Shown piece by piece: positions 3,588-19,280 of a stretch of DNA of 64,000 nt. This DNA comes from an uncultured Bacteroidales bacterium (GTDB taxonomy: Bacteria; Bacteroidota; Bacteroidia; Bacteroidales; UBA932). The first letter of the stretch is position 1, and every line of letters begins with the position of its first letter. The notes beneath the pieces were generated by a model. It saw only the letters and a program-made list of their open reading frames with translations, did no database searches and had not been told where the DNA came from. The position numbers were made by a program, and so were the translations under genes. The stretch covers positions 1 through 64,000 of the forward strand of contig CALVDF010000009.1 of NCBI GenBank assembly GCA_944326245.1, given 5' to 3'.

Positions 3588-5139
3588 TCATTGATTTTAC
3601 AAACGCTTTACCTTTCTCTGTCAACACATACCCTCCAGTTTTGCGAGAACCTTGATACTCAATAAAATTAAGTCCTTCAGATATAAGTTGCTTAAGTATT
3701 CTATCAATTGTAGGCATTGATACATTTATTGCATCATGCAAATCTTTCCTCTTAGCTATTCCAAGTTCGGAAATCTTTAACAGGACACTTTTTATCTTAT
3801 CATTTATCTTATCATTTATCTTATCATCATCTGCGGATATAAAATCATCCCCAATCAATACTCTATCCCCAAACCCTTCTCTACAAGGAATCTCAATCAA
3901 GAAATAACTTCTCTCTTCATTGGTCTCAATTACAGCAGGGCCAGAACCATTTCTTCTTAACTCATCCTGTATGGTTGGGATACCGGTTCCTCTACCTTCG
4001 GACAACTGAAGTTCCTTGAGATAATCGCCCAAACGACGGTTACGGTAGCGGCGTGACTTCAGACGTTCTGCCTTTTGGATGGCATCAATGCTGATGGAAC
4101 GGTCCGGTCCGGCATAGCTAAGAATGGAAATTTTATCTGGCTCAATCGTAATTTCAACCGGTTCCCGTTCTTGATAGTCTCTATGATAAAGTGCATTAAC
4201 TACCGCTTCTTCAATAGCCTGGTAAGGATAGTTGAAGAAGGTTATCGATTCAGCCTTCTCTTTCTGCTTGATGATACGTCTCTTGATAACATTAGTCTTG
4301 ATATAGTCCAGCGCTTGTTTGATCATATCGGGCACAGGGCCGACAATCTTCGGAACCTCAATCATATTGTTGGGATTCTTGATGCAGCCTTCAGGAAAAA
4401 TGACAATATCCACCTGTGTCGTCGGGAAAAATTTGGCAGGGTTCTTACAGAACATCATGGCAGCCACATTCTTGACCAGCTGACGTTCGACGGGCCCTAC
4501 CAACAGGTCCATCTGTGACAACAACTCTGAGAGGGACAACTTTTCGAAATCAGCGACCAAACGACTATTGACAGTTTGCAGGTAATCCAGAACCAAGGCT
4601 CTTGATATATCTGTCATCTCTATATTCTCATTACCTCTTTCGTCAAATGGAGTACGATTTGCCATCTCACGCAATTCATCCAAGACTTCACCTTTCGCCT
4701 CAATGGTATTGGTTCCACTACGAATATACCATTTACATGGCGACTGATTACTTGCTGTGACTCGTTCACGCACATTATAAGGACGATTCACTCCGGCCGG
4801 TACCCAGATAAGTAAAATGTATTTTCCATCTACCTCCTGCACGTCGATTCTTGGCAAGTAGAATGGCTCAATCTTATGATTGAACCCCATCATGTCACGC
4901 TGTATCTTATCGAGTTCTTCTATAGGAACACCTGCTACTGGCCGTTTTGCGATGCCTGTGTTTTCTTCTTCTTGAACACCTACGATGATGTATCCTCCGC
5001 CAATGTTATCAAAATCATTTGCAAAAGCACAGATGGTACGATAAATTTTATCTGGATTCCACCCTGTCTTAAACTCAATACGGGTGGATTCTATTTTACG
5101 CTTATGAAGCAAGTCTTCTATGTTTACCGGAATAGCCAT
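3580..5139 (-). CDS. AlbA_2/Schlafen-type ATP-binding regulator
   Basis: This 519-aa protein begins with an AlbA_2 (divergent AAA_4, Schlafen-related) domain at about residues 10-150, seen in EFKTGWNPDKIYRTICAFAN and GGGYIIVGVQEE. An HATPase_c_4-like region follows at about 290-410 (EAVVNALYHRDYQ, LSEGRGTGIP), and a C-terminal winged helix at about 455-515. Between the last two lies a short repeat DDKINDKINDKI, encoded by a tandem near-repeat of 12 bases. Proteins of this build are called putative DNA-binding or transcriptional regulators and often sit in type I R-M operons. It follows the XRE gene by 10 bp and overlaps the hsdM downstream. A regulatory role in R-M expression is inferred; an effector role cannot be excluded. 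Confidence 0.85.
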   Translation of the reverse strand: MAIPVNIEDLLHKRKIESTRIEFKTGWNPDKIYRTICAFANDFDNIGGGYIIVGVQEEENTGIAKRPVAGVPIEELDKIQRDMMGFNHKIEPFYLPRIDVQEVDGKYILLIWVPAGVNRPYNVRERVTASNQSPCKWYIRSGTNTIEAKGEVLDELREMANRTPFDERGNENIEMTDISRALVLDYLQTVNSRLVADFEKLSLSELLSQMDLLVGPVERQLVKNVAAMMFCKNPAKFFPTTQVDIVIFPEGCIKNPNNMIEVPKIVGPVPDMIKQALDYIKTNVIKRRIIKQKEKAESITFFNYPYQAIEEAVVNALYHRDYQEREPVEITIEPDKISILSYAGPDRSISIDAIQKAERLKSRRYRNRRLGDYLKELQLSEGRGTGIPTIQDELRRNGSGPAVIETNEERSYFLIEIPCREGFGDRVLIGDDFISADDDKINDKINDKIKSVLLKISELGIAKRKDLHDAINVSMPTIDRILKQLISEGLNFIEYQGSRKTGGYVLTEKGKAFVKSMND

Positions 5140-5149
5140 CTTGATATAC

Positions 5150-5362
5150 TTATTTAGATTTATCCTTTTCTACATGAAGCAATTCTCTTACATCAACATC
5201 CAAAAGTTCCGCTATGCGAAATAATGTTTCCAAATCTGGTTGTGAAGCATTAGTACACCAACGGGAAACAGATGTCACATTCCTGCCAACTTGCTCAGAG
5301 AGCCATTTTGCCGTTTTATTCTTTTCAACAAGGACTATTTTAATCCTATTCAATTGCTTCAT
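5150..5362 (-). CDS. XRE-family helix-turn-helix regulator
   Basis: A 70-aa protein that is almost entirely one HTH_3 domain: KTAKWLSEQVGRNVTSVSRW is the helix-turn-helix, followed by the PDLETLFRIAELL helix typical of the family. It is the first gene of the type I R-M operon and lies directly behind a well-formed promoter at 5388-5419. A small XRE protein at the head of an R-M operon is the arrangement of controller proteins, which delay or limit expression of the restriction genes. A direct repeat TTTAATG at 5381 and 5402, 21 bp apart and overlapping the promoter, is a plausible operator for it (inference). Confidence 0.88.
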   Translation of the reverse strand: MKQLNRIKIVLVEKNKTAKWLSEQVGRNVTSVSRWCTNASQPDLETLFRIAELLDVDVRELLHVEKDKSK

Positions 5363-5387
5363 AATTGGAATGTTTTGTAGTTTAATG

Positions 5388-5419
5388 CAAATATATTAAA
5401 ATTTAATGTATGAATCAAA
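5388..5419 (-). promoter_or_regulatory. Bacteroidota promoter of the type I R-M operon
   Basis: On the minus strand there is a TTTG box (5416-5419), a 20-bp spacer and the -7 box TATATTTG (5388-5395). This matches the Bacteroidota consensus TTTG-N19-21-TAnnTTTG. The XRE start codon lies about 25 bases downstream. TTTAATG occurs at 5381 and 5402 and could bind the XRE protein. Confidence 0.7.
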
Positions 5420-5582
5420 CTTTGCTCAATTAATCAGATGATTAGTATAAACTTTTCAGTATTGAAGCGGAAAGTACAAGAAATTGCAGAATAATCATGA
5501 AGAAATTCAACACAAAATAAACCTACTGGTTGATTTTTGGAAAAACTTTAGTACTTTCGTTCCATAAACCTGTAGATTAATT

Positions 5583-5963
5583 ATGGAGTTTGATATCATT
5601 TACCCGGAAAATAAGGCTGACGCATTCGATGCGGAATGTGGAAAAGCACAAAAGACTATGCGTGCACGTGCAAAGCCGACAAAAACCTGGATTTCAAAAT
5701 CAAAATTTGAGATTGAGAATGAGGAAGAGCTCCTTGCATGCAGGAGGATCATCCTCAAAATTGTCCGCTACAAGCAGGACAACAATATGAGTCAAAAAGA
5801 ACTTGCCGAAAAATTGAATGTATCTCCTCAGTATATCAATAAACTGCTTCACGGACAAAATCTTGATCTCAAGATTACTACTGTACTAAGATATGGGCGA
5901 CTCCTTGGGATTAAATTGATTGCACTTCCTGAAGATGAACCCGCTACGCCTCAGCATAGCTGA
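5583..5963 (+). CDS. HigA-like helix-turn-helix protein, no toxin partner seen
   Basis: A 126-aa protein with a C-terminal XRE domain at about residues 58-115: YKQDNNMSQKELAEKLNVS and PQYINKLLHGQNLDLKI are clear. The N-terminal 55 residues are charged and not recognised. Antitoxins of HigA type look like this, but no small RelE/HigB-like toxin gene lies on either side: upstream is the divergent R-M operon, downstream a 133-bp gap and the broken rloB. It is either an orphan antitoxin or a free-standing regulator. It points away from the hsd operon and leaves a 220-bp shared upstream region, so it could also act on that promoter (inference). Confidence 0.75.
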   Translation: MEFDIIYPENKADAFDAECGKAQKTMRARAKPTKTWISKSKFEIENEEELLACRRIILKIVRYKQDNNMSQKELAEKLNVSPQYINKLLHGQNLDLKITTVLRYGRLLGIKLIALPEDEPATPQHS

Positions 5964-6119
5964 AACACTACCCTTTCATTAAGAAGAAGTGGATCTTATG
6001 AAGTAAGGAGTCCTGATCCCAAAAAGCATTGCTTTACCTGAAAAAATCTACTGTATGTCAATCCCATATGATTATTGCCTATAAATGTTTGATTATTCAT
6101 ATTGAACCTAATATATTTA

Positions 6120-6990
6120 GAAACTGTTTAAATTTTATTCAAAAATAATTTTATGGCAGCGATATGCATCATGGCTTCGTGCGTATCGGCCCTGTATTCA
6201 TAGTCAATGGTCAGTCTCCTGAAGTTCTCGAGCCATGAGAAAGTGCGCTCGACAATCCATCTTTTTGGCATGGGGACAAATCTGTCCGTCCGTTTGTCAG
6301 ACCTGAGTACGACATCCAGGTCGCAATGCAGCAGTCTCATGACCGTGTTCCTGACAGTCTCGCCCCTGTAACCTCCGTCCGCCAGAATCCGTTTCAGCCC
6401 CGGGAATTTGTATCTCATGGATTCGAGCACCTCTTCCGCCCCTACGCTGTCATGGACGTTGGGCGGATGGACCCTCACTGACATGGGCAGCCCCAGTGTG
6501 TCAACCACTATGTGCTCCTTCCTGCCCTTTATCTTTTTGTTTCCGTCTATTCCCCTTTGACCATCAATATGATGGGAGGTCCTGACACTCCTTGAGTCGA
6601 TGATCCCAAGGCTGGGACTCTCCGCCCTGCCCGAAAGACGGCGGACAATGCCGCGGAGGGTGTCGAAGATCTCTTCAAGCAGGCCCTCGTTCTTCCACTT
6701 GCTGAAATAGTAATACACTGTCTGCCACGGAGCGAAATCCGAGGGGAGCATTCTCCACTGCACGCCGGTCTTCACGATGTACAGGATGCCGTCAAAAACA
6801 GAGCGCAGAGAATATTTTCTGAATCTTTCTTTGGGGTCCAGCATATTTTTTATAACTTGCCACTGTTTATCAGTCAGGTTGGTTGGGTACTTATGCATAA
6901 CTTTAATGTCTTGATAACCATAAAGTTACGAAAAATATTCCAATTAACCTACTGATTTACAACTAATTATAAATAAATTTAAACAGATTC
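6120..6990. mobile_element. IS5-family insertion sequence, complete (871 bp)
   Basis: One transposase gene fills the element. The ends form near-perfect inverted repeats: GAAACTGTTTAAATTT from 6120, and GAATCTGTTTAAATTT read inward from 6990 (15 of 16 match). It is flanked by a direct TTA at 6117-6119 and 6991-6993, the 3-bp TNA target duplication expected of the IS427-like group of IS5. The intact ends and open transposase frame point to a recent and possibly active copy. It sits in the last codons of the rloB remnant. Confidence 0.88.
6128..6898 (-). CDS. IS5-family DDE transposase
   Basis: A 256-aa transposase in a single frame, the usual length for the IS427-like group. It has the DUF4096-type N-terminus (LTDKQWQVIKNML) and a DDE RNase H-like core: first Asp in GIIDSRSVRTS, second Asp in LADGGYRGE, Glu in WIVERTFSWLENFRRL. 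It ends 8 bp inside the left terminal repeat. No frameshift is needed, unlike the two-frame IS5 members. Its GC is higher than the AT-rich flanks, as expected of a recent arrival. Confidence 0.95.
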   Translation of the reverse strand: MHKYPTNLTDKQWQVIKNMLDPKERFRKYSLRSVFDGILYIVKTGVQWRMLPSDFAPWQTVYYYFSKWKNEGLLEEIFDTLRGIVRRLSGRAESPSLGIIDSRSVRTSHHIDGQRGIDGNKKIKGRKEHIVVDTLGLPMSVRVHPPNVHDSVGAEEVLESMRYKFPGLKRILADGGYRGETVRNTVMRLLHCDLDVVLRSDKRTDRFVPMPKRWIVERTFSWLENFRRLTIDYEYRADTHEAMMHIAAIKLFLNKI

Positions 6991-7387
6991 TTAGTAATTT
7001 TATCACCTTATGTACTTCCGAATATGCCTTCAAATCCTCCGGTGACTCTTTACATAATTGACACATTTTTTCTGAATTTGACATCGCCAGTCCCAAATCT
7101 CCATTCTCTGTCAAGTATTTATAGAGGTTGGTGCGTATGAAATATCGTTTTGTCTTTTCATACCCCGGCATATATTTCTGCAATTCGGGAAGTAATTGCT
7201 CATAGCTCTCATATCGCCGACAAACCACATTAGGCAAGAAGTGGAGCAGAAACCGTCACTGTGCCGTGGAAAATCCGGAGCGACCTTGAAAGGATAGCGG
7301 CACGCGATCCTCAGAGAATCGAAATAGAACCATTCCGTTTCTCCCTCGCCTATGATGGCGATGCTTGTTGTTACTGTCCGCCCCATA

Positions 7388-8689
7388 TCATTGTTCGTCT
7401 AGGTTAATGTATTGACTGCCAAGGAACGGAAGCTTAACTAATTTACCCTGTTTGTAAGCATTATACGGTGAGAGATTCTTGTGCAGGCCTAAAGATGAAA
7501 GACGCACTATTTTAGTCTCGCCATATTCGTCTTTGTCGGTAAACCATATCGTATCACGTCGAATGAAATCCTCATTAAGAAGATTGATGTCGTGTGTTGT
7601 CAACAACATTTGGGATGTTCCTTCACTGTTCGCTAAAAATACTTTTATAAAATAAGCCAGCAGTTCATAGTGGATGCTTGTCTCGACTTCGTCAATAAGC
7701 ACAAACCGGTTGGTCTTCAACAAGAAATTCAGAATTACGGCCATTCCCAAAAATCTCATTGTACCATTGGATTCATATTCTTCAGACAAATCGTATAGTT
7801 TGTCGCCAACCTTATGCTTGAATGTCAATTCTGCATTTGTGATTTTCCCTTTTCTAAGCATTTCTGCTTTTGCCTCATCATCAATAGGGGCATTTTGAAT
7901 CAATTGCTCCAATTCAGGGGTAATCAATTCTTCCTCTTCATGCAATACGACATCTTCTATGTTAAAATCAGATGCTTTCAAGAAATTTAAAATGAACTTC
8001 TTCAAATCGCCTGTTTCATCTTTATCCAATCGTGATTTTACATATCCCGAAAGTAGCATGCCAGGAGCCAATACATCTTTTACCTGTTTGGCAAAGTAAT
8101 CGTACACATCGTTCAACTTGGTACGCTCCACATTACTTTTGCCAAATGCGGCAAGTACACTGCAATTATTGATCGTGTTGCCGGAAATCACATCCTGACT
8201 CTTCCGTGGCATTTTCAGATTTACGCCGAAATCTATTGTTGTGGAATCTGTTGTTGCATCGTAACTACGGCTATACAATTTGGTAGGACGGATGGAATCA
8301 TAAACTATCAATGTTTCGGAATAGATGTATTTTGCGTCCAATTCAAAAGAAAGGATATACTTCGACGTATTAATATAGAATACCATAGACATCTTCGTCC
8401 TTTCATTCCTCGATGTGTCATCCAGCATAAAAGGAACGACCCCGGTTTTCTCATTCCGGTCTTTAGGCATCTTAAGAACAAGCATTCTGAAAAATTCCAC
8501 AGCATTCAATACATTGGTTTTGCCGGAAGCGTTAGCACCATAGATGATGCCCAATTTCAACAATCTTACCCCATCCTTAACTTCATATGAATACTCGTCA
8601 GACATAAAAGTATCTGATGAAGGTTCAAAGCTTATCTTTTGCGGGGACTTAATTGAAAAAAAATTTTCAATAGTGAATTCTGCTATCAT
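7388..8689 (-). CDS. rloA: RloA-like AAA family ATPase
   Basis: A 433-aa ABC/SMC-like ATPase of the AAA_15/AAA_21 group. The start is taken at MIAEFTIENFFSIKSP, the standard start of the family, not at the upstream in-frame Met. Walker A is GANASGKT near residues 50-57. Walker B is FVLIDEVETSIHYE in the C-terminal third, followed by the QMLLTTHD switch region. The gene ends 1 bp before the rloB remnant, the normal RloA-RloB order. Pairs of this type (ATPase plus Toprim-like nuclease) act in phage defence in related systems such as OLD-like pairs and PARIS. Since rloB is destroyed, this ATPase is probably a leftover half of a dead module. An open frame suggests the loss is recent. Confidence 0.85.
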   Translation of the reverse strand: MIAEFTIENFFSIKSPQKISFEPSSDTFMSDEYSYEVKDGVRLLKLGIIYGANASGKTNVLNAVEFFRMLVLKMPKDRNEKTGVVPFMLDDTSRNERTKMSMVFYINTSKYILSFELDAKYIYSETLIVYDSIRPTKLYSRSYDATTDSTTIDFGVNLKMPRKSQDVISGNTINNCSVLAAFGKSNVERTKLNDVYDYFAKQVKDVLAPGMLLSGYVKSRLDKDETGDLKKFILNFLKASDFNIEDVVLHEEEELITPELEQLIQNAPIDDEAKAEMLRKGKITNAELTFKHKVGDKLYDLSEEYESNGTMRFLGMAVILNFLLKTNRFVLIDEVETSIHYELLAYFIKVFLANSEGTSQMLLTTHDINLLNEDFIRRDTIWFTDKDEYGETKIVRLSSLGLHKNLSPYNAYKQGKLVKLPFLGSQYINLDEQ

Positions 8690-8834
8690 ATTCGTTGAAT
8701 TAATCTGTCGTATGATGCAAATATAGAAATAACAATCAATATATGGAATCATAATTCGTGTTTTCGTAGTAAAATTACGAAAAACGAATACAAATCAATG
8801 TCTCAAATATTTTATAACAACAGGGTAAAGCAAA

Positions 8835-8899
8835 AGGTGCCGGCTCAACAGCCCTCGCCTACCCTGGAAGCCGGACATCGTCCTGCCCAAGATCAATTA
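8835..8899 (+). pseudogene. Deleted remnant of a vsr gene
   Basis: Bases 8835-8886 match 9516-9567 inside vsr in 50 of 52 positions (codons around RLNSPRLPGKPDIVL). The remnant then jumps to a match with vsr at about 9641-9655 (tcctgcccaaga-caat). Both vsr positions carry GTCCTGC (9561-9567 and 9640-9646), so the remnant looks like a vsr copy that lost 79 bp between short repeats. It has no reading frame of use. It lies 3' of the small lipoprotein gene. Confidence 0.7.
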
Positions 8900-9283
8900 C
8901 TTATCCTGCACCACTTTCACGGTAGCGTATTCAGGACCAGAGTAAAGTTCGATGTATAGCGTACGCGACTTCCCGGTGGTGTTGGGCTCTGCATGGATTA
9001 TAAAATCCTTATTGTTCCCGTCATATGCTTTATACTCTACCTTCAGCCAGCGATGGACATTGTAGAATGTCCCGTCTTCCGTTTTGTGCACTTCACCGCT
9101 TTCTCCTGTTTTATAGTCGTGTATTTCCGCATGGGTATAGGCTGTGTTGCCGGTGATTGTTTCCACCCCACCTTCGCCCGGGAACGTCACAGTGTCCGGA
9201 AATCCCAAATCAACCTCTTTGAAGCATGAAGTACATAGGAACGACAACAGGCATATTGACAATCCGATCAGAATCTTTCTCAT
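8897..9283 (-). CDS. Small lipoprotein, BACON-like fold possible
   Basis: A 128-aa protein starting MRKILIGLSICLLSFLCTSC, a clear lipoprotein signal with Cys at about residue 20; the longer frame upstream has no sensible start. The mature part has VTFPGEGGVETITG near its start and ends RTLYIELYSGPEYATVKVVQ. That layout (P-x-x-GG early, last strand ending V-x-Q) resembles BACON-type beta-sandwich modules of Bacteroidota surface proteins. The function is unknown. It stands alone between the broken rloAB region and the oppositely oriented vsr. Confidence 0.7.
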   Translation of the reverse strand: MRKILIGLSICLLSFLCTSCFKEVDLGFPDTVTFPGEGGVETITGNTAYTHAEIHDYKTGESGEVHKTEDGTFYNVHRWLKVEYKAYDGNNKDFIIHAEPNTTGKSRTLYIELYSGPEYATVKVVQDK

Positions 9284-9407
9284 GGCTCTATACAGTTTTT
9301 TATGATTTTGGTGCCAAGTTATGATAAAATATCTATCTTCAAACAAAATTCCGCTATCAGGCATAAATTTCGATGGTGCCGACAGGCACAGGATACAGGA
9401 TACCGTC

Positions 9408-9860
9408 ATGGACAAAATGACCAAAGAGCAGCGCAGCAGATGCATGTCGAAGATCAGGGGACGGGATACCAAGCCGGAACTTCTGGTCCGGAAGTATCTC
9501 TTCAGCCGCGGCTACAGGTACCGGCTCAACAGCCCTCGCCTACCCGGGAAGCCGGACATCGTCCTGCGGAAATACAGGACCGCCATCTTTGTCAACGGCT
9601 GCTTCTGGCACGGACACGAGGGTTGCAGGTATTTTGTCCTGCCCAAGAGCAATGCGGAGTTCTGGCGCGGAAAGATAGAAAGGAACCGGGAACGGGACAG
9701 GACGGAGCTCAGGCTTCTCGCTGAAATGGGATGGCATACCATCGTGGTGTGGGAATGCCAGCTCAGACCGGCAGTGCGCCGGCAGACCCTCGAGTCCCTG
9801 GACTACACACTCAACCACATCTACCTCGAAGACCGCAGGATAATTTCACGCTTTGGATGA
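9408..9860 (+). CDS. vsr: Very short patch repair endonuclease Vsr
   Basis: A 150-aa protein of normal family length. The start MDKMTKEQRSRCMSKIRGRD is standard for Vsr and is preferred to the upstream in-frame Met. Catalytic features are visible: TKPE with Glu24, Asp50 in PGKPDIVL, and the FWHGH box at 66-70. Vsr nicks 5' of the T in T:G mismatches produced by deamination of 5-methylcytosine and normally travels with a cytosine-5 methylase. None of the methylases in this window is a C5 type (all are N6-adenine types), so this copy is an orphan. A deleted copy of its own sequence lies at 8835-8899. Confidence 0.93.
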   Translation: MDKMTKEQRSRCMSKIRGRDTKPELLVRKYLFSRGYRYRLNSPRLPGKPDIVLRKYRTAIFVNGCFWHGHEGCRYFVLPKSNAEFWRGKIERNRERDRTELRLLAEMGWHTIVVWECQLRPAVRRQTLESLDYTLNHIYLEDRRIISRFG

Positions 9861-9922
9861 AGATGGGTGATGCCGGGAGGGGAAAAATGTTAACTTCGCG
9901 CCCCGGATTTTATTACAAAGGC

Positions 9923-10813
9923 ATGAAGAAGCTTAGCAAAAACGCGATTGTCGGTTATCCTGCCGGAATAATCACAGGAATAACCTACGGACTGAACCCT
10001 ATGTTTGCCGTACCTCTGATGCAGAATGGGGCGGCGACAGAGTCAATCCTCTTTTTCCGGTATACGTTTGCGGTCCTGCTCCTCGGAGCATTCCTGCTGG
10101 TCACCAGGCACGGTTTCAGGATTTCGTGGAAACAGGCCGGAGTGCTGCTCGTACTCGGACTGCTGTTCACCTCCAGCAGCCTTCTGCTCTTCGGGGCCTA
10201 CAGGTATATAGCATCCGGACTTGCCACCACCCTGGTGTTCCTGTATCCTGTTCTCGTAGCGATAATAATGGTATTCCTCAAGGTCGTGCCGTCCTGGCCG
10301 GTATGGCTGGCCATCATTGCCACTTTCGGAGGTGTCCTCATCATGACCCACAGTGACGGGAGCCATGCAATAGATCCTGTAGGTGTTGTCCTTTCGCTGG
10401 GTGCTGCCCTGGCCTATGCCCTTTTCATAATAATCATCAACCGCAGCAAAGTCATTGCTGACATATCCAATCCCCTGCTGACATTCTATACGCTCATTGT
10501 AGGCGCAGCCGTGTTCCTGAGTATAAGTCTCTTCTCGGATGCAGGAATGACCGAAGGGATATCAAGCGGCAAGGACTGGCTCAATCTGCTCGGGCTGGCG
10601 CTTCTTCCGACGATAGTTTCTACTGCAACCCTTGCCGTCGCCACCAGAAACATCGGAGCCACGAAAGCCTCCGTTCTCGGGGTGTTCGAGCCGATCACTG
10701 CCATTCTGGTTGGAACGCTGATGTTCGGAGAGCCGCTGACAGCCAATATCATTGCCGGTATATCCATTGCCATTGTCGCTGTTACCTTCATGATAGCCGT
10801 GACCAAGCGCTGA
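9923..10813 (+). CDS. EamA/DMT-family transporter
   Basis: A 296-aa inner-membrane protein of about ten hydrophobic segments, made of two EamA repeats. The second repeat ends with the family signature GATKASVLGVFEPITAILVG and the closing helix FGEPLTANIIAGISIAIVAV. The start MKKLSKNAIVGYPAGIITGI leads straight into the first helix; the longer frame overlapping vsr is rejected. Such proteins export or exchange small metabolites or amino acids; the substrate cannot be read from sequence. It is a single gene convergent with the following lipoprotein. Confidence 0.9.
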   Translation: MKKLSKNAIVGYPAGIITGITYGLNPMFAVPLMQNGAATESILFFRYTFAVLLLGAFLLVTRHGFRISWKQAGVLLVLGLLFTSSSLLLFGAYRYIASGLATTLVFLYPVLVAIIMVFLKVVPSWPVWLAIIATFGGVLIMTHSDGSHAIDPVGVVLSLGAALAYALFIIIINRSKVIADISNPLLTFYTLIVGAAVFLSISLFSDAGMTEGISSGKDWLNLLGLALLPTIVSTATLAVATRNIGATKASVLGVFEPITAILVGTLMFGEPLTANIIAGISIAIVAVTFMIAVTKR

Positions 10814-10842
10814 TTCCCGGCTTTCCCCCCTGTGCTTCCTGG

Positions 10843-11289
10843 CTAGAGAATGGGCGGTTTTGGAGGCCAACCCGGCCTGGGGAAGACATTGTCATCGTTC
10901 ATGTAGTTGGGATTGAGGTATTCAAGTCTGAACTCATTGTAGCCTTCCAGCTTGAATGTCACGTAGACATACGCTCCTTCCTGATCTGCCTCCCAGGCTT
11001 CCACAGTGCCCATGCCGTCCGGAATCACGAAAACCGCCGATTCCGATACTTGCGAGTACATCCACATTGAACAGCTTTCCCAAGCTTCCTCAGCCGATTC
11101 GGCCGCAATTACATATACGTTCTGATTGCTGCCTGAGCCCAGGATGGTTCCCTGCTCGATCATGCTTTCGAAATTCCCGACAATCTCATCCACATATTCC
11201 TGGCCGCTTTTCAGGTCAGTTTTCTGGCATGACACGCTTGCAAATGCCGCAGTCATGACGATACCTGCATAAATCAACCTTCTATACAT
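10843..11289 (-). CDS. Hypothetical lipoprotein
   Basis: 148 aa. The start is placed at MYRRLIYAGIVMTAAFASVSC, a lipoprotein signal peptide with Cys at about 21. The upstream part of the open frame overlaps the divergent gene and is not credible. The mature protein is acidic (SGQEYVDEIVGNFESMIEQG) and ends in a Pro-rich tail RPGWPPKPPIL. It has no recognised domain. It is divergent from the BMP-type lipoprotein gene, with 88 bp between them. Confidence 0.65.
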   Translation of the reverse strand: MYRRLIYAGIVMTAAFASVSCQKTDLKSGQEYVDEIVGNFESMIEQGTILGSGSNQNVYVIAAESAEEAWESCSMWMYSQVSESAVFVIPDGMGTVEAWEADQEGAYVYVTFKLEGYNEFRLEYLNPNYMNDDNVFPRPGWPPKPPIL

Positions 11290-11351
11290 ACTGCTTTCAG
11301 ATTTTACGGCGCAATAATACGAAAAATAATCATATTGCACGCGGAAGATTG

Positions 11352-11359
11352 TAAATTTG
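11352..11359 (+). promoter_or_regulatory. -7 promoter box upstream of the BMP lipoprotein
   Basis: TAAATTTG matches the Bacteroidota -7 consensus TAnnTTTG and lies 18 bases before the ATG at 11378. No good TTG box is seen 19-21 bp upstream, so this is only a half-supported promoter. Confidence 0.4.
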
Positions 11360-11377
11360 CCGCCTGGAATATTTGAG

Positions 11378-12292
11378 ATGTACATATTCTTCAATTTGAC
11401 CGGTATTTTTTTCGTGCTTCTTTCGTGTGTTTCATGCACAAAGGAGGTATTTCCCAATGATGTCCCAGCCCCCGCGAGAGTCAATGTGGTGTTTTCTCCG
11501 GGAGGTCTGGGGGATCAGGGCTACAACGACCTCATCCTTGCCGGTTTCCTCAAACTGAGACTTGCCTATCCCGATGTCTGTTTCATCTTCTATACGCCTG
11601 AATCGGTCGAAGAGGCTGAAACGATTGTCACAGACTGGATTGCAGCCCCGGCCGGAAGTAGTGACGAGCTTTTTGTTCTGGCAAGTTCCGACTATGAGGA
11701 CATGATAAGTGGCATTCTGGACGGACAGTCCCGGTATGACAGTCCCGACACGGGGAAAGACATTCTGCTTATGGAAAGCCGGAACAGGGGCTCCCTGCCT
11801 ATACTGACGCTGCGGATTTCGATATATGGAGCCTCGTACCTGGCAGGACTTTCGGCCGCGGAGCATTACGGGGACAGGCCTGCAGTGGTCGTCGGGGCCA
11901 ATCCCTACGACGAACCTGTGCTCTCGGCCGTCTACGGATTCATGGACGGCTGGAAATCGGTGACGGCGACCGGCATTGACACGGTATTCATGTCCACGGA
12001 CTGGAACGGATTCATCATGTCCGAAGAGGCATACCGCATGACGGGAGAATGGGCACAGACATACGGCTTCGTCTTCCCCGTCGCCGGCGGTACCAACAAC
12101 GGTATCTACAAATATCTGCGGGAGTATCCGGGCAGTATGAAGACCGCCGGAATGGACACCGACCAGTCCTACCTGTGCTCGGATATTGTAGGTTCGGTAC
12201 TCAAGCACATCGACCGGCTCGTCTACGATGCGGTAGGCCAGTGGATAGAGACCGGGGACATCGCCGAACAGGGATATTGCGGACTTGCATGA
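11378..12292 (+). CDS. BMP/PnrA-type substrate-binding lipoprotein, likely 3' frameshift
   Basis: 304 aa from MYIFFNLTGIFFVLLSCVSC, a lipoprotein signal. It has the marks of the basic membrane protein (BMP/PnrA) type I periplasmic-binding fold: GGLGDQGYNDLILAGF near the N-terminus, SAAEHYGDRPAVVVGANPYD in the middle, and GMDTDQSYLCSDIVGSVLKH near the end, matching the GxDxDQ ligand-side motif. PnrA proteins bind purine nucleosides for ABC uptake, but no ABC genes are adjacent. The frame ends at YCGLA. The +1 frame from about 12276 continues DLHDGYAEWLWPETIDGE to a TAG at 12381-12383, overlapping the next ATG in operon fashion. A single-base shift has therefore probably cut off the last 35 or so residues. 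Confidence 0.75.
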   Translation: MYIFFNLTGIFFVLLSCVSCTKEVFPNDVPAPARVNVVFSPGGLGDQGYNDLILAGFLKLRLAYPDVCFIFYTPESVEEAETIVTDWIAAPAGSSDELFVLASSDYEDMISGILDGQSRYDSPDTGKDILLMESRNRGSLPILTLRISIYGASYLAGLSAAEHYGDRPAVVVGANPYDEPVLSAVYGFMDGWKSVTATGIDTVFMSTDWNGFIMSEEAYRMTGEWAQTYGFVFPVAGGTNNGIYKYLREYPGSMKTAGMDTDQSYLCSDIVGSVLKHIDRLVYDAVGQWIETGDIAEQGYCGLA

Positions 12293-12369
12293 CGGATATG
12301 CCGAATGGCTATGGCCTGAAACCATAGACGGGGAGACCATGCAGACGGCTATCGGAAAGGAGGAAGAAT

Positions 12370-14466
12370 ATGAGAACAGGTAGAACGGCATCGGGTATTC
12401 CGGCAAAAATAATGGCCATACTGGCACTGGCATCAATGGCTGTATCATGCAGCAGAAACGGCATCGGACCGGAGCAGACAACTGTCAGCAGGACGGTAGC
12501 CGTAATACTGCCGATGCAGGACGGGCTCGGGGAACACTGGAAAAGGACGACGGACCTGTATCTCGGCGAGTTCGACAAGGCCCAGACCGGTCAGAACCGT
12601 AGAATCGACCTCAATGTCGAATTCTACGATGAGGATACGGAAGACATCGCGGCACTCATATCGGACCTGTGCGACAGGGAGGATGTCGATGCCGTCGTGG
12701 GAGGGCTCAGGTCCGCCAATGCAAGCATCATGGCGGAAGAATGTTCGTGGGAACGGAAGACATTCTTCACACTGGCCACAGCGGAGGAACTCATAAGGGC
12801 GCACTCCAGCGAAGGGTACTTGTGGGCAATGACGGAAACGGACATTACGGAATGCGAGGTACTCCTTTCCAGGGCCGAAGCCTACGGGGCGAAATCTGTG
12901 GCTCTCGCCGCCAAGGACAACGATCCCTACGGCAAGACATTCATAGACTGGTTCGCCTTTCAGGCCCAGGAGTTCGGAATGGAAATAAAAGGTATATTCA
13001 CTTATACCGGCAGTGATGCGGGCACTGCAGCGGCAAACGCAGTGGGCAGCGGTGCCGATGCCGTCATCTGCATCCCGACCGACATTGCCGACATAGCGCC
13101 CATGCAGTCGGCAGTAAAGGACAGCCGGAAGATAGTCCTGTTCGGAGATACGGCTTTCGGGACCAATGTCCTGCAGCTTATGGGCGAGGACGCTGAAGGG
13201 ATCGAGGGGGTGGCATTCATCTCGGATCCCGAGTCAGGTTTCGACGTCATGTACAGCACATATTTCGATACCCACCCTACCCTCGGTGAAGCACAGTACT
13301 ATGATGCCCTGCTTCTGCTAGGATACGGATTCTGTTATCAGAGTCTCCATGAAGGGACATCACTCAAGGATGCACTGAGAAAGGTCGTTGAGGAAAGCAT
13401 GTCTACCGGATGGATGGGCGACGGTATCGCGGCAGTACTGCGCAAGCTCGAAGCCGGAGATGAGCCCGACATTTCCGGTGCCTCAGGCTCCCTGGATTTC
13501 GATGAACTGGTCTATACCAACGTCCTGAACACTGTCTACTGCCACTTCAAAGTCTATATGGACGCATACATCTATCTCGATTATCTGACCAGTGACGGCA
13601 GCAACCGCACCCAGTCCACTCTGGCCGGCTGGAATTGGGAGGCCGAAAGCATGCAGGACTTCGATGACGGCAACGATATGGAATACCCTGAACTGGACCA
13701 GAGATGGGCACTGCTCGCAGCTACGTCGGACAGATGGGAAGACTACAGGTACCAGGCGGATGTGCTGGCCATGTACCAGCTGCTGAAATCCTCGGGCTAC
13801 GACGACAGCCATATCGTACTTATCATGGAGGACAATCTGGCTTACCATGAGCTCAATCCGGACCAGGGATATGTCAGGGTCGATCCGGAAGGTGAAAATC
13901 TCTATCACGACATCATTCTGGACTACAGACTGTCGGACCTTTCCAAAGAGGATATCCAGGACATAATCTGCGGGAGGTCTTCGGAAAGATTGCCCAGCGT
14001 GATAGGAGCCGACGAAGATGACAACGTGTTTGTCTTCTGGAGCGGTCACGGTCTGCCAGGGATATTCTGCTGGGGATACACTCCTGACGGCATCGACGGT
14101 GACATGGCCATGGAGATGTTCTCGGAAGCCAGATTCAGGAAGATGATATGCTTTATCGAGACCTGCTACTCCGGAAGTGTGGCCTCGAGCTGCACAGGAA
14201 TTCCGGGCCTGCTCTTCTTCACTGCCGCAAACGAATTCGAGACTTCCAAGGCTGACGTCTTCAGTTCCAGACTGAACGTATGGATGACCAACAGATTTAC
14301 CCTGTCGCTGCGCAGTGCCCTTCGGGAAAACCCTTCCATCTCTCTCAGGGAGCTCTATTACACCCTGTTCCGCAACACGGTCGGATCAAACGTTATGGTC
14401 TATAACAACGACAGCTACGGCAACATGTTCAACAATACCATGCAGGAGTTCATCGGAGGATGCTGA
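12370..14466 (+). CDS. Lipoprotein: type I periplasmic-binding domain fused to legumain-like C13 peptidase
   Basis: 698 aa. The lipoprotein signal ends ALASMAVSC (Cys about 27). Residues 38-420 form a Leu/Ile/Val-receptor-like periplasmic-binding domain: RTVAVILPMQDGLGEHWKR, VDAVVGGLRSANAS, AVICIPTDIADIAPM. From about 446 the sequence turns legumain-like: WALLAATSDRWEDYRYQADV, YQLLKSSGYDDSHIVLIMED, then FWSGHG with His560 and ETCYSGS with Cys599. This His-Cys spacing (39) is close to that of legumain/GPI8. The dyad is intact, so a cell-surface or periplasmic cysteine peptidase or transpeptidase joined to a ligand sensor is inferred. The gene follows the BMP-type lipoprotein, overlapping its shifted frame, so the two probably work together. 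Confidence 0.85.
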   Translation: MRTGRTASGIPAKIMAILALASMAVSCSRNGIGPEQTTVSRTVAVILPMQDGLGEHWKRTTDLYLGEFDKAQTGQNRRIDLNVEFYDEDTEDIAALISDLCDREDVDAVVGGLRSANASIMAEECSWERKTFFTLATAEELIRAHSSEGYLWAMTETDITECEVLLSRAEAYGAKSVALAAKDNDPYGKTFIDWFAFQAQEFGMEIKGIFTYTGSDAGTAAANAVGSGADAVICIPTDIADIAPMQSAVKDSRKIVLFGDTAFGTNVLQLMGEDAEGIEGVAFISDPESGFDVMYSTYFDTHPTLGEAQYYDALLLLGYGFCYQSLHEGTSLKDALRKVVEESMSTGWMGDGIAAVLRKLEAGDEPDISGASGSLDFDELVYTNVLNTVYCHFKVYMDAYIYLDYLTSDGSNRTQSTLAGWNWEAESMQDFDDGNDMEYPELDQRWALLAATSDRWEDYRYQADVLAMYQLLKSSGYDDSHIVLIMEDNLAYHELNPDQGYVRVDPEGENLYHDIILDYRLSDLSKEDIQDIICGRSSERLPSVIGADEDDNVFVFWSGHGLPGIFCWGYTPDGIDGDMAMEMFSEARFRKMICFIETCYSGSVASSCTGIPGLLFFTAANEFETSKADVFSSRLNVWMTNRFTLSLRSALRENPSISLRELYYTLFRNTVGSNVMVYNNDSYGNMFNNTMQEFIGGC

Positions 14467-14468
14467 CC

Positions 14469-14483
14469 GGGGCTTCGGCTCCC
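14469..14483. terminator. UUCG-loop hairpin between convergent genes
   Basis: The stem GGGGC / GCTCC (one wobble) closes a TTCG tetraloop in the 22-bp gap between two convergent genes. The position fits a terminator, but there is no long T run. Confidence 0.3.
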
Positions 14484-14488
14484 TCCCG

Positions 14489-15790
14489 TCACATGATGAA
14501 GAATTTCAGAAGGAATATAGCTGCCAGTACATACATGCCTATGGTGAGCTTTTTGTACTTGCCGCAACTCAGGTTGAGCAGTACATAGCACAGATGTCCC
14601 AGCACTATGCCTTCAGCTATACTGTAGGCCAGCGGCATGATCGCTATGCACACGAATGCCGGTACGGATTCCGAATATTCGTTGAAGTCTATTTCCTTTA
14701 CGGATGTCATCATCATCAGCCCCACAAGGATCAGCGCCGGAGCCGTGGCAGCTCCCGGGACAGCCAGGAAGAACGGGGCGAAGAACAATGCGAGCAGGAA
14801 GCATACGGCCGTGACGAATGCCGTGAGTCCGCTTCTGCCGCCTTCGACCACTCCCGCCGCACTTTCGACGTATGTGGTTATCGTGCTTGTTCCCAGGCAG
14901 GCACCTGCGGCAGTACCTATGGCATCTACCATGAACGCCTGCTTGACGCGTGGTATCTTCCCGTTACGGTCCAGCATACCGGCCTTGTTGGCGACTCCTA
15001 CCAGAGTCCCGAGAGTATTGAAAATATCCACGAACAGGAAGGTAAATACGACTATGACCATCTCCTTGGTGAATATGTGCTCCCATTGGAACTGGAAGAA
15101 AACCGGCTTGACGGACGGAGGGACGCTGATTACCCCTTCCATCCTGGTAACCCCCATGGGAATGCCTATCAGCGTACTCACGACGATGCCTATGAGCAAG
15201 GCTCCAGGCACTTTCTTTATCAGAAGGAAAGCGCTGAGCAGCAATCCTATCATCCCGAGAAGGGCGGAACCGCGCGTCAGGTCTCCGAGTCCTACCAGGG
15301 TGGTATCGTTGTTTACGATTATCCCTGCATTCTGCAGTCCGAGGAAAGCTATGAACAGCCCTATGCCGGCTCCGATGGCATGCTTGAGGGTCAACGGTAT
15401 CGCATCGATTATCTTCTCGCGGAGATTGGTCACTGTCAGAAGGATGAATATAATGCCCTCTATCAGTACCGCTGTCAGGGCAAACTGCCAGGAGAATCCC
15501 ATGGTGATGCACACCGTATACGCAAAAAAGGCATTGAGTCCCATACCGGGCGCCAGGGCAAAAGGCAGTTTGGCATAGACAGCCATCAGCAATGTTGCCA
15601 GTGCCGAAGACAGAACCGTAGCCGTGAATACCGCGCCCCTGTCCATTCCGCATGCGCTCAGAATATTGGTATTGACAGCCAGGATATAGGCCATCGTAAG
15701 GAATGTCGTTATGCCGGCTATGATTTCCGTCCTTACTTTCGTCTTGCCCGGGTCGAATCCGAATAATTTGCCCAACATGTTCATATTCAT
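14489..15790 (-). CDS. NCS2-family purine (guanine/hypoxanthine) permease
   Basis: A 433-aa inner-membrane carrier of the AzgA/PbuG branch of NCS2. The start MNMNMLGKLFGFDPGKTKVR and the first helix AGITTFLTMAYILAVN, which follows at once, are typical of this branch. Other marks are APGMGLNAFFAYTV (signature of TM3) and GTSTITTYVESAAGV before TM8. It would take up guanine, hypoxanthine or adenine with protons. It ends convergently against the C13 fusion gene and lies 16 bp downstream of the DUF5020 gene, with which it probably forms an operon. The DUF5020 product resembles a nucleoside-channel barrel, so uptake across both membranes is plausible (inference). Confidence 0.92.
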   Translation of the reverse strand: MNMNMLGKLFGFDPGKTKVRTEIIAGITTFLTMAYILAVNTNILSACGMDRGAVFTATVLSSALATLLMAVYAKLPFALAPGMGLNAFFAYTVCITMGFSWQFALTAVLIEGIIFILLTVTNLREKIIDAIPLTLKHAIGAGIGLFIAFLGLQNAGIIVNNDTTLVGLGDLTRGSALLGMIGLLLSAFLLIKKVPGALLIGIVVSTLIGIPMGVTRMEGVISVPPSVKPVFFQFQWEHIFTKEMVIVVFTFLFVDIFNTLGTLVGVANKAGMLDRNGKIPRVKQAFMVDAIGTAAGACLGTSTITTYVESAAGVVEGGRSGLTAFVTAVCFLLALFFAPFFLAVPGAATAPALILVGLMMMTSVKEIDFNEYSESVPAFVCIAIMPLAYSIAEGIVLGHLCYVLLNLSCGKYKKLTIGMYVLAAIFLLKFFIM

Positions 15791-15806
15791 TTCTTTTTAT
15801 AGTGTT

Positions 15807-16511
15807 TCAGAATGTCCATTTTACTGCGAGGGTCGGGATGAAATAGAAACCGTCCCTCGTTGCGAAGTCCGTACTCATCTCCCATTCGGTCCCGAAGCTC
15901 AGGTGCAGATCGTCGCTTACCTTTTCGAACTTGTCCAGATTGATCCAGAACTGGGGCTCGGTCAGGAAGACGAAGTCATGGCCGTTGCCGTTTATGTCCG
16001 TATGCTTTTCCCGCCAGAAATCCATGAATCCGCTGAAGGTGTACCGGCCCCCGCCGAAATGCAGGGTCCATGTGGCCGTCAACTGGAAATTGTGCGGAGA
16101 GACATTCCCGACGATATACTTGTACAGGACCTGTATCCCGAATACTTTCGAGAAGTCCTCACTGTTCCAGTTATATGCCGCACCTCCCAGGAAGGCATGG
16201 TTGATGAAGTTCAGTCCTCCGTCATATTCCACATGGATTGCCACCGGAGCCTTCCAGAATCTGAGCTGGCGGCTTATTTCCCAATACGCTCCCGTTATCC
16301 CTTCTTCTCCGTAGTCCATGTCTATGAAGAAAAATGTGCTGCCGTACTTGTCGGCCTTGAACATTTCCACTGTAGTGGTTACCCTTGAACGGTCCCCCAG
16401 TGATTTATAGAAATCCCTTCCGAAATCATAATGTACCTGCAGATTTACCTGCCCGAGGGCAAATATCGGAAAGATGCAGCCTAGAAGGACAGAGAATATT
16501 GTTTTTTTCAT
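15807..16511 (-). CDS. DUF5020 outer-membrane beta-barrel (Tsx-like)
   Basis: 234 aa with a Sec signal peptide (MKKTIFSVLLGCIFPIFALG, cut before QVNLQ). The mature protein alternates hydrophobic and polar residues and ends FYFIPTLAVKWTF with a terminal Phe, as outer-membrane barrels do. NLQVHYDFGRD and STFFFIDMDY are typical of DUF5020, a family related to nucleoside-specific Tsx channels. It is transcribed ahead of the purine permease. The -7 box TAAATTTG lies on the minus strand just upstream (about 16536-16543). Confidence 0.82.
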   Translation of the reverse strand: MKKTIFSVLLGCIFPIFALGQVNLQVHYDFGRDFYKSLGDRSRVTTTVEMFKADKYGSTFFFIDMDYGEEGITGAYWEISRQLRFWKAPVAIHVEYDGGLNFINHAFLGGAAYNWNSEDFSKVFGIQVLYKYIVGNVSPHNFQLTATWTLHFGGGRYTFSGFMDFWREKHTDINGNGHDFVFLTEPQFWINLDKFEKVSDDLHLSFGTEWEMSTDFATRDGFYFIPTLAVKWTF

Positions 16512-16669: not shown

Positions 16670-17797
16670 ATGCATACAAGAGTGGAAGACCATCAAAGAA
16701 ATACTGACAGGAATACCGTTCTGACAATTACGGGCTCGGACAGCACCGGAGGTTCTGGTGTACAGGCCGACATCAAGACCATATCCGCCCTCGGGGGATA
16801 TGCCGTGTCCGTCATAACGTCCATCACCGTACAGAACACTATCGGCATACAGGATTTCTACGACATCCCGCCCGAAGTGATTGCCGGGCAGATCGAGGCC
16901 ATCGTCAACGACGTGCAGCCGCGTGTCGTCAAAATCGGTATGATACGCAGCGCGGCAGCCGTAGCCGGCATCACGGAATCGCTGAAGAAGTACCCTTCGT
17001 ATGTGATCTACGACCCGGTCATAGTCTCCAGCTGCGGTGAGAAACTGATGTCCGACGACACTGTCGCCACCATCAGGCAGTCCCTCCTGCCCCTGTGCTC
17101 ACTGGTCACAGTCAGGAATACCAGCGCCGGCTACCTTACAGGCACCCATCCCGATTCCTCTGCCGACATGACCGGGACAGCAAAGGAAATCATGAAGTAC
17201 GGCTGCGGGGCAGTGCTTCTGCAGCAGGCAGGTTCCATGGCCGGATCTTCCATGGACATCCTCGTCCGCAAGGGGGTCCCAGCATGCAAATATGTATCCA
17301 TGCCCGATACTGACATACTCTACGGGCGGCACGGCGTCAGCAGCAGCATATCCTCGGCCATAGCCACATTCCTGTGCCAGGGACACGACCTGGCGGATGC
17401 GGTGGACAAGGCGTACGGCTACGTCAATCAGGCTCTGGCGGCACATGCGGATCTGGTCGGAAGGGCCAGCGAACTGTACAATGAGTTTGTCAATGAGGTG
17501 GCGGGGCATTTCAGTTCCAACAGCGACGTGCACTTCTACGCGGATGCGCTCAATGTCAGCAGCAGATATCTGGCGCAGGTCACAAAAAGGATCGCGGGCA
17601 AAGCTCCCAAGACCATCATCGACGAATATCTGTGCAATGAGGCGAAGCGGCAGCTGCTCTCCTCCGACAGGACGGTGCAGGAAACGGCGTACGGGCTCGG
17701 ATTCAATTCCCAGGCCCATTTCTCGAAGTTTTTCAGGAAGATGACCGGCATAACCCCGAGCGAATACAGAAAGATAAAACGCAACAATATAATATAA
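16670..17797 (+). CDS. ThiD/PdxK-like domain fused to AraC HTH, probable PdxST regulator
   Basis: 375 aa. Residues 18-265 follow the HMP/pyridoxal kinase fold: [19 protein letters not shown] and [10 protein letters not shown] near the start. Key catalytic parts are altered: the KGG-type ATP segment reads LLQQAGS, and the GTGC anion-hole motif before the last helix reads RHGVSSS, so the catalytic Cys/Asp is missing. Residues 280-372 are an AraC-type DNA-binding domain ([38 protein letters not shown]). The gene ends 11 bp before pdxS. The simplest reading is a regulator whose former kinase domain senses a B6 vitamer or HMP and controls pdxST. Residual kinase activity cannot be excluded. Confidence 0.85.
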
Positions 17798-17808
17798 CAC
17801 ACATAATC

Positions 17809-18684
17809 ATGAACAAGGAAAGACAGACTTTGAACAGGAACCTCGCCCAGATGCTCAAGGGCGGAGTGATAATGGATGTAACGACACCCGAACAGGCCAG
17901 GATAGCGGAGGATGCAGGAGCATGCGCCGTAATGGCCCTGGAGCGGATCCCCGCGGACATACGTGCCGCAGGCGGAGTCTCACGCATGAGCGACCCCAAG
18001 CTCATAAAGCAGATTCAGAACGCCGTTTCCATACCGGTAATGGCAAAATGCCGCATCGGACATTTCGCCGAAGCCCAGATCCTCCAGGCCCTGGATATCG
18101 ATTACATCGATGAGAGCGAGGTCCTCTCCCCTGCCGACGACCTGTACCATATCGACAAGAACGAATTCGATGTTCCCTTTGTCTGCGGTGCCAAAAACCT
18201 GGGCGAAGCCCTCAGGCGCATATCCGAGGGAGCTACCATGATCAGGACCAAGGGCGAGCCCGGCACCGGAGACGTCATCCAGGCTGTAAGGCACATGCGC
18301 CTCATCCAGAAAGAGATCCGCATGCTTGTGGCCATGCGCGAGGACGAACTTTACGACTCTGCAAAACAGCTTCAGGTGCCTTATGAACTGGTATGCTACG
18401 TGCATGAAAACGGCAAGCTGCCTGTCGTCAACTTCGCTGCGGGAGGCATTGCCACGCCGGCAGACGCTTCGCTGATGATGCAGCTGGGAGCCGAAGGAGT
18501 ATTCGTGGGATCCGGCATATTCAAGAGCGGAAATCCGGTAAAGCGCGCCACAGCTATAGTAAAGGCCGTCACGAACTACAACGACCCTGACATGCTGGCT
18601 GCCCTGTCGGAGGATCTCGGAGAGGCAATGGTAGGTATCAACGAGCAGGAAATCACCCTGCTGATGGCCGAGCGCGGCAAATGA
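17809..18684 (+). CDS. pdxS: Pyridoxal 5'-phosphate synthase, synthase subunit PdxS
   Basis: 291 aa, full length. PdxS makes PLP from ribose 5-phosphate, glyceraldehyde 3-phosphate and ammonia supplied by PdxT, in a 12-mer cytosolic complex. Conserved parts are visible: [20 protein letters not shown] at the N-terminus, [19 protein letters not shown], the Schiff-base Lys in [24 protein letters not shown], and the phosphate-site [14 protein letters not shown]. It overlaps pdxT in ATGA fashion if pdxT starts at its first ATG. It lies directly behind the ThiD-like/AraC fusion, so the three form a B6 operon. Confidence 0.98.
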
Positions 18685-18704
18685 CAAGAGCTGAAGGACA
18701 GAAG

Positions 18705-19280
18705 ATGAAAATTGCAGTACTGGCACTTCAGGGAGCATTCCTCGAGCATGAACAGATGCTGTGCAGGCTCGGTGCCGACACATTTGAAATAAGGAAGGCG
18801 GAAGACTGGGAGAAGCCCAAGGACGGACTCATCATCCCCGGCGGGGAAAGCACCACCCAGGCAAAGCTGCTGAGGGAGCTGGGACTCATGGAACCGGTCA
18901 GGGAGGCCATTATCGGCGGCCTCCCTGTCTGGGGAACATGCGCCGGGCTGATACTCCTCGCTGACCATGTGGTCAACGGTGTCCCTTCAGGCAGTCTGGG
19001 CACGATGTCGATAGACGTCTGCCGCAACGCCTACGGCAGGCAGTCAGGCAGCTTCTTCACCACAGGTACAATTGAAGGCATAGGAGACGGTATCCCCATG
19101 ACATTCATCCGGGCTCCCTACATAAGCAGAGTGAGGGGCAATGCCCGCATTCTCGCCGAATGCGGCGGACACATCGTGGCTGCCATACAGGACCACCAGT
19201 TCGTCACCTCCTTCCACCCCGAACTCAACGACGACCCGCGCGTACACGCCTACTTCCTCCGCCTCGCCCGCCGGCACTGA
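18705..19280 (+). CDS. pdxT: Pyridoxal 5'-phosphate synthase, glutaminase subunit PdxT
   Basis: A 191-aa class I glutamine amidotransferase that feeds ammonia to PdxS. The conserved start is MKIAVLALQGAFLEHEQML. An in-frame ATG at 18681 overlaps the pdxS stop (ATGA) and would add eight residues. The oxyanion segment GGESTTQAKLL, the nucleophile Cys in WGTCAGLILLA and the His-Glu pair in TSFHPELNDD are all present. It is the last gene of the B6 operon and is convergent with the adenine deaminase gene. Confidence 0.97.
   Translation: MKIAVLALQGAFLEHEQMLCRLGADTFEIRKAEDWEKPKDGLIIPGGESTTQAKLLRELGLMEPVREAIIGGLPVWGTCAGLILLADHVVNGVPSGSLGTMSIDVCRNAYGRQSGSFFTTGTIEGIGDGIPMTFIRAPYISRVRGNARILAECGGHIVAAIQDHQFVTSFHPELNDDPRVHAYFLRLARRH

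Follow-up and report, generated by a model that had tools for sequence, protein, structure and literature searches.

The gene at positions 12370 to 14466 (+ strand) of the window, which is the whole 64,000-nucleotide stretch of contig CALVDF010000009.1 from an uncultured Bacteroidales bacterium analysed here, encodes a lipoprotein of 698 amino acids in which a type I periplasmic-binding domain is joined through a short linker to a C13 (legumain-type) peptidase domain. The reading frame is uninterrupted across its 698 codons. The original prediction of a type I binding domain that carries a lipid anchor and is joined to a complete C13 domain of the legumain type is borne out by the lipobox at Cys27, by Pfam matches and by the predicted folds. 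The domain order, which that prediction had proposed to look for in other genomes, recurs in many Bacteroidales genera, at about 30 loci in all, which rules out an artefact of either the fusion or its frame. No papers on binding-protein/C13 fusions or on operons combining C13 peptidases with MACPF (perforin-domain) proteins were found in the open-licence literature, and the protein is a conserved C13 peptidase variant that is so far undescribed in the literature searched.

Domains and active site of the fusion protein

The fusion is predicted to be an envelope lipoprotein. Its signal peptide and lipobox (12370-12450, + strand) end in AVSC at residues 24-27, followed by SRN, and the lipidated residue, Cys27, is aligned and kept in 29 of 29 relatives. 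The residues behind the cysteine (CSRNGIG) contain no acidic run; many relatives have an acidic stretch there (CSSDD, CREDD), which resembles the known lipoprotein export signal of Bacteroidetes. Comparison of these signals was made with three SusD-like proteins only, which is too few to decide surface location. A role in anti-phage defence was considered and rejected, as the only hint was a weak caspase match (PADLOC E 5e-4) and the signal peptide and lipobox make a cytosolic defence effector unlikely. Assignment to the EACC1-associated caspase family was likewise rejected, with a score far below the cut-off.

The binding domain spans residues 38 to 413 or thereabouts (12481-13608, + strand), within which Peripla_BP_6 (PF13458) matches residues 53-339 with an E value of 7e-18, over the curated cut-off. 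The C13 domain occupies residues 442-698 (13693-14463, + strand) and is matched by Peptidase_C13 (PF01650) over residues 445-685 (E 3.5e-36, 125.5 bits against a cut-off of 22.8). An AlphaFold2 model of the whole protein has a mean pLDDT of 74, with values of roughly 80 and 87 across most of the two domains and poor values around residues 342-430. Its pTM of 0.49 is low, so the model does not predict how the two domains sit relative to each other.

When compared by VIA-align, the binding domain gives Z scores of 28.1 to LivK (3td9) and 28.6 to 4jb0, and the matches of the LivJ/LivK type extend over 320-330 residues. The predicted structure of the C13 domain superposes on human legumain with a Z score of 34.8 and an rmsd of 1.7 A over 252 residues; the two are 25-26% identical. 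A single-sequence search of the PDB with the C13 part reached plant and mammalian legumains with E values down to 2e-28, and a profile built from ten relatives matched legumain at 2e-45 and covered the mature enzyme end to end. GPI transamidase, with Z up to 34.1, and peptide ligases, with Z up to 33, are about as similar to the domain. The original prediction had called C13 enzymes best known from eukaryotes, which is fair, though bacterial C13 proteins exist and the control genome, Caulobacter vibrioides, gave a match too. In the source genome of 2.49 Mb, no C13 gene other than the fusion was found.

The motifs quoted in the original prediction (RWEDYRYQADV, FWSGHG and ETCYSGS) are all present in the sequence, and the His-Cys dyad that it described is intact. 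His560 (14047-14049, + strand) aligns with the histidine of the legumain NHG motif and is His in 30 of 31 relatives; Cys599 (14164-14166, + strand) aligns with the cysteine of legumain EACESGS and is Cys in 29 of 30. Both are conserved in every complete relative except one. The prediction could have failed on the fold of the C-terminal part or on conservation of the dyad in homologues; both points were examined, and a legumain fold and a conserved dyad were found.

The S1 pocket of legumain, which accepts Asn or Asp, is taken here to consist of Arg44, Glu187, Ser215/216 and Asp231. Three of these four positions are retained in the fusion, the equivalents being Arg460 (31 of 31 relatives), Glu/Asp597 (30 of 30) and Ser626 (30 of 30). 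The fourth, Asp231, corresponds to Asn641, a position that is Asn in 18 of 30 relatives and Asp in 11 of 30, and legumain Asn42 corresponds to Asp458. This degree of conservation would favour cleavage after Asn or Asp. The protein shares with mammalian legumain and the plant asparaginyl endopeptidases a common fold throughout the catalytic domain, the dyad and the S1 Arg/Glu/Ser, and differs from them at Asn641 and Asp458, in being a bacterial lipoprotein with an N-terminal ligand-binding domain, and in ending with the C13 domain at residue 698, where the C-terminal activation peptide and inhibitory prodomain of legumain are absent. GPI8/PIG-K, the catalytic subunit of GPI transamidase, has the C13 fold in common with the fusion but belongs to a eukaryotic ER complex and lacks a binding domain of this type.

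The binding domain has the type I fold of the LivJ/LivK branched-chain amino-acid binding proteins. Thr/Ser137, Arg143 and Asp158 are each conserved in 30 of 30 relatives and Ser115 in 22 of 30, so that the ligand-binding positions of LivJ appear to be only partly kept. Unlike LivJ and LivK, the domain is joined to a peptidase and lacks nearby genes for an ABC transporter: neither a permease nor an ATPase of the ABC type was found among the window neighbours examined, which include an EamA transporter, lipoproteins, a uracil/xanthine-type permease and a DUF5020 protein. The lack of an ABC permease or ATPase makes both this domain and the binding protein encoded upstream look like sensors or recruiters rather than importers.

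The Bmp-type partner gene and the spread of the pair

As the original prediction had noticed, the fusion adjoins the gene for another solute-binding lipoprotein. This partner (11378-12292, + strand) is of the Bmp/PnrA type: it matches PF02608 (E 4e-8, 33 bits against a cut-off of 24.1), its top structural matches are BmpD (Z 22.5) and PnrA (Z 22.1), its profile matches Lbp, PnrA/TmpC and BmpD by sequence, and it carries the motifs GDxxYND and GMDxDQ. It is the single PF02608 gene of the source genome. A Bmp-type gene lies immediately upstream of the fusion in 28 of 30 loci, and the two frames overlap in 25 of the 27 pairs measured, typically by 8-26 bases when counted from the furthest-upstream start. 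The pair is conserved as a unit, and the genes outside it vary between loci. Domain, fold and motifs are those of the nucleoside-binding lipoproteins PnrA and BmpD; in contrast to these, the partner has no transporter near it and is the near-invariant neighbour of a C13 fusion. Upstream of the pair is a promoter-like -7 motif of the Bacteroidales type, TAnnTTTG (11352-11359, + strand), which is a weak match by consensus only. The divergent lipoprotein encoded at 10843-11289 was rejected as a further partner, as no relative of it occurs near any other fusion locus.

The window copy of the partner gene appears damaged. Its frame ends at 12292, and another frame holds a conserved tail, HDGYAEWLWPE (QSGYIEWSPV in relatives), that stops at 12381-12383, 14 bases inside the fusion gene, as it does in relatives. 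The presence of this tail in the other frame indicates that the window copy is frameshifted near its 3' end with the loss of about 30 residues, either by a real mutation or through an assembly error. In one congener (G121, locus L054) the Bmp gene is split across two frames, and in another (G142) the C13 gene is shortened. The unit may be decaying in the source genus, or the assemblies may be wrong there.

The fusion family is patchy yet widespread across Bacteroidales families. A scan of 84,980 genomes yielded ten loci, nine of them with full-length fusions of 35-45% identity, which come from Prevotella communis and from Bacteroidales of the horse, ruminant and buffalo gut. In an alignment-based search, 15 of 300 genomes from the source family and 7 of 393 from the source order carried the fusion, the source genome being counted, and this patchy spread (15 of 300 within the family) implies that the function of the fusion is dispensable. 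The one relative lacking the dyad (L038, which reappears as L071 at larger scale) is a second copy in genome G551, at 8344-10557 of its locus; both catalytic residues are lost, with GNG and DASN in place of the dyad motifs, and it has no Bmp neighbour, so it looks like a dead paralogue. In genome G269 the Bmp/C13-fusion pair is tandemly duplicated (L055, 4807-11316), and two more fusion copies lie elsewhere in that genome.

Other genes of the window merit brief mention. At 16670-19280 (+ strand), a kinase of the phosphomethylpyrimidine/pyridoxal type is joined to an AraC helix-turn-helix domain, with pdxS- and pdxT-like genes following it; the protein could be a one-protein kinase-regulator of vitamin B6 synthesis. 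An AAA ATPase gene and an RloB-like gene at 6128-8752 (- strand) are likely an inactivated defence pair; the reading frame of RloB is interrupted, and a transposase gene of the IS4/5 type lies directly beyond. A gene for a Vsr mismatch endonuclease is found at 9321-9860 (+ strand), and no gene for a cytosine methylase was seen in the frames next to it.

MACPF genes in the sister clade

At nine loci the pair is preceded, on its own strand, by one to three genes encoding MACPF lipoproteins, and these often overlap or abut the neighbouring frames. A profile of the MACPF proteins matched perforin-1 and complement components C6, C7, C8 and C9 in the PDB. The 23 fusion-bearing genomes contain 20 MACPF genes, of which 16 are in the fusion's own cluster, two are on the fusion's contig some 12-15 kb off and two are elsewhere. 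Among 393 Bacteroidales genomes sampled evenly, MACPF genes occur in 19, the fusion in 7 and both in 3 (Fisher p 0.003, which is a guide only because the genomes are related). Adjacency is the stronger fact, and in the three genomes with both, 7 of 7 MACPF genes sit at the fusion locus.

In a tree of the fusions, every MACPF-linked copy falls in one clade of 13 (support 100/98), which also includes copies beside other lipoproteins, and the window fusion is placed in a sister clade whose six members have no MACPF link; the tree has several long branches and a midpoint root, so its deeper joins are unsure. No MACPF gene was found in the source genome. The link therefore informs on the family and not directly on the window copy, and its application to the window copy was rejected.

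The order of one to three MACPF lipoprotein genes, a Bmp-type gene and the C13 fusion is seen at L074 (Prevotella communis, 4718-16001), L076, L067, L068 and L069, with three MACPF-like genes and two further lipoprotein genes at the P. communis locus. At L057 (2522-7625), L056 (3441-8231), L059 (133-6952), L055 (1-4792) and L053 (4293-5345) the pair is adjoined on the same strand by genes for large lipoproteins of about 310-840 amino acids, none with a Pfam match above the cut-off. The upstream lipoprotein families c3, c7, c17, c19 and c24 were considered as hidden MACPF proteins and rejected after profile comparison, which returned only signal-peptide and N-terminal similarity, such as that between the N-terminal regions of c7 and of the MACPF proteins. 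None of the five families had a Pfam match above the cut-off, c7 had no match in the PDB, and no homologues of c3 were found in the source genome.

Proposed control of the peptidase and competing explanations

The preferred reading, held tentatively and given a somewhat less than even chance, is that the LivJ-like domain controls the legumain-type peptidase within an envelope lipoprotein that works with the PnrA/Bmp partner, and that MACPF proteins are the substrates in the sister clade. A small ligand, amino-acid-like at the LivJ domain and nucleoside-like at the Bmp partner, would bind and alter the contact of the binding domains with the peptidase, and cleavage after Asn or Asp would thereby be switched on or off. 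In the MACPF clade, where the pair closes the operon, the pore-forming lipoproteins of the operon would be the likely substrates. Gating is the favoured view for two reasons: the peptidase is retained together with two binding proteins that have no transporter, and the controlling C-terminal prodomain of legumain is missing. In its absence, control would most obviously fall to the N-terminal binding domain and the partner. The absence of the Bmp neighbour in the sole relative without a dyad was counted in favour of the reading, as were the predicted folds, the conserved dyad and pocket positions, the near-constant gene pair with its overlapping frames, the status of the partner as the single PF02608 gene of the genome and the MACPF link in one clade. 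Counted against the reading were the partial retention of LivJ ligand positions, the frameshift in the window Bmp gene, the split Bmp gene of G121, the patchy distribution and the pocket changes at Asn641 and Asp458.

The same proteins could instead form a constitutive envelope protease for nutrient capture, with the binding domain merely keeping substrate peptides or released amino acids close to the membrane, the Bmp partner doing likewise for another nutrient, and no gating. Amino acids are ligands of LivJ-type folds, protein is degraded by gut Bacteroidales and the P. communis copy has a C10 peptidase gene downstream of it, all of which would suit such a role, but importer genes are absent nearby in the window, a nucleoside-type partner is odd for protein feeding and the MACPF clade is a poor fit; this explanation is unlikely. 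The missing prodomain can also be taken to mean that the binding domain has replaced it as a structural or autoinhibitory module and no longer binds ligand, with activation by proteolysis or acid. Partial loss of the LivJ ligand positions agrees with this, but the invariance of Thr/Ser137, Arg143 and Asp158 does not, and the partner too has a ligand-binding fold; the proposal is likewise unlikely.

Less credible by far is a transpeptidase or ligase that attaches proteins to the cell surface in the manner of GPI8 or the plant peptide asparaginyl ligases. The fold is equally near these enzymes, but fold does not tell a hydrolase from a ligase, and the listed neighbours offer no hint of such a function. 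It is similarly hard to credit that the gene is a functionless, decaying remnant in the source genus. The source genome lacks MACPF, and the broken Bmp genes of the window and G121 and the truncated C13 gene of G142 are what decay would produce; on the other hand, the fusion is intact with all active-site residues present, and the window clade may never have had MACPF.

The cleavage of pore-formers proposed for the MACPF clade has precedents. BcpT and the two-component CDCLs of Bacteroides require cleavage by a C11 surface protease (PMC9308784, PMC11169675). The C11 enzymes fragipain and doripain are, like the fusion, clan CD cysteine peptidase lipoproteins of Bacteroidales, and C11 activates toxins that include pore-formers (PMC9308784, PMC11169675). 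They differ in cutting after Arg or Lys, and no fusion of them to a binding domain is known; the link between C13 and MACPF is one of gene order only. Mammalian perforin-2 is cut by asparagine endopeptidase, a case of a legumain-family protease acting on a MACPF protein that is lysosomal and eukaryotic and offers a parallel for the sister clade only (PMC7614779). By analogy with BcdI in the CDCL operon, the Bmp-type lipoprotein of the MACPF clade could possibly serve as an immunity protein. Rather doubtful is a bacterial complement-like system in which two ligand-sensing lipoproteins, one of them with a legumain-type protease, would respond to a signal at the cell surface and cleave co-encoded MACPF lipoproteins to set off pore formation against rivals, the window copy being a relative of this sensor-protease that acts on another substrate.

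Should the fusion prove to be ligand-controlled, it would directly model how C13 peptidases, whose eukaryotic members are controlled by prodomains, can come under allosteric control. The C13-MACPF operons of one clade present a concrete and testable case for dedicated Bacteroidales proteases of perforin-like proteins, one that parallels the C11/CDCL pairs of Bacteroides and the processing of perforin-2 by asparagine endopeptidase in dendritic cells.
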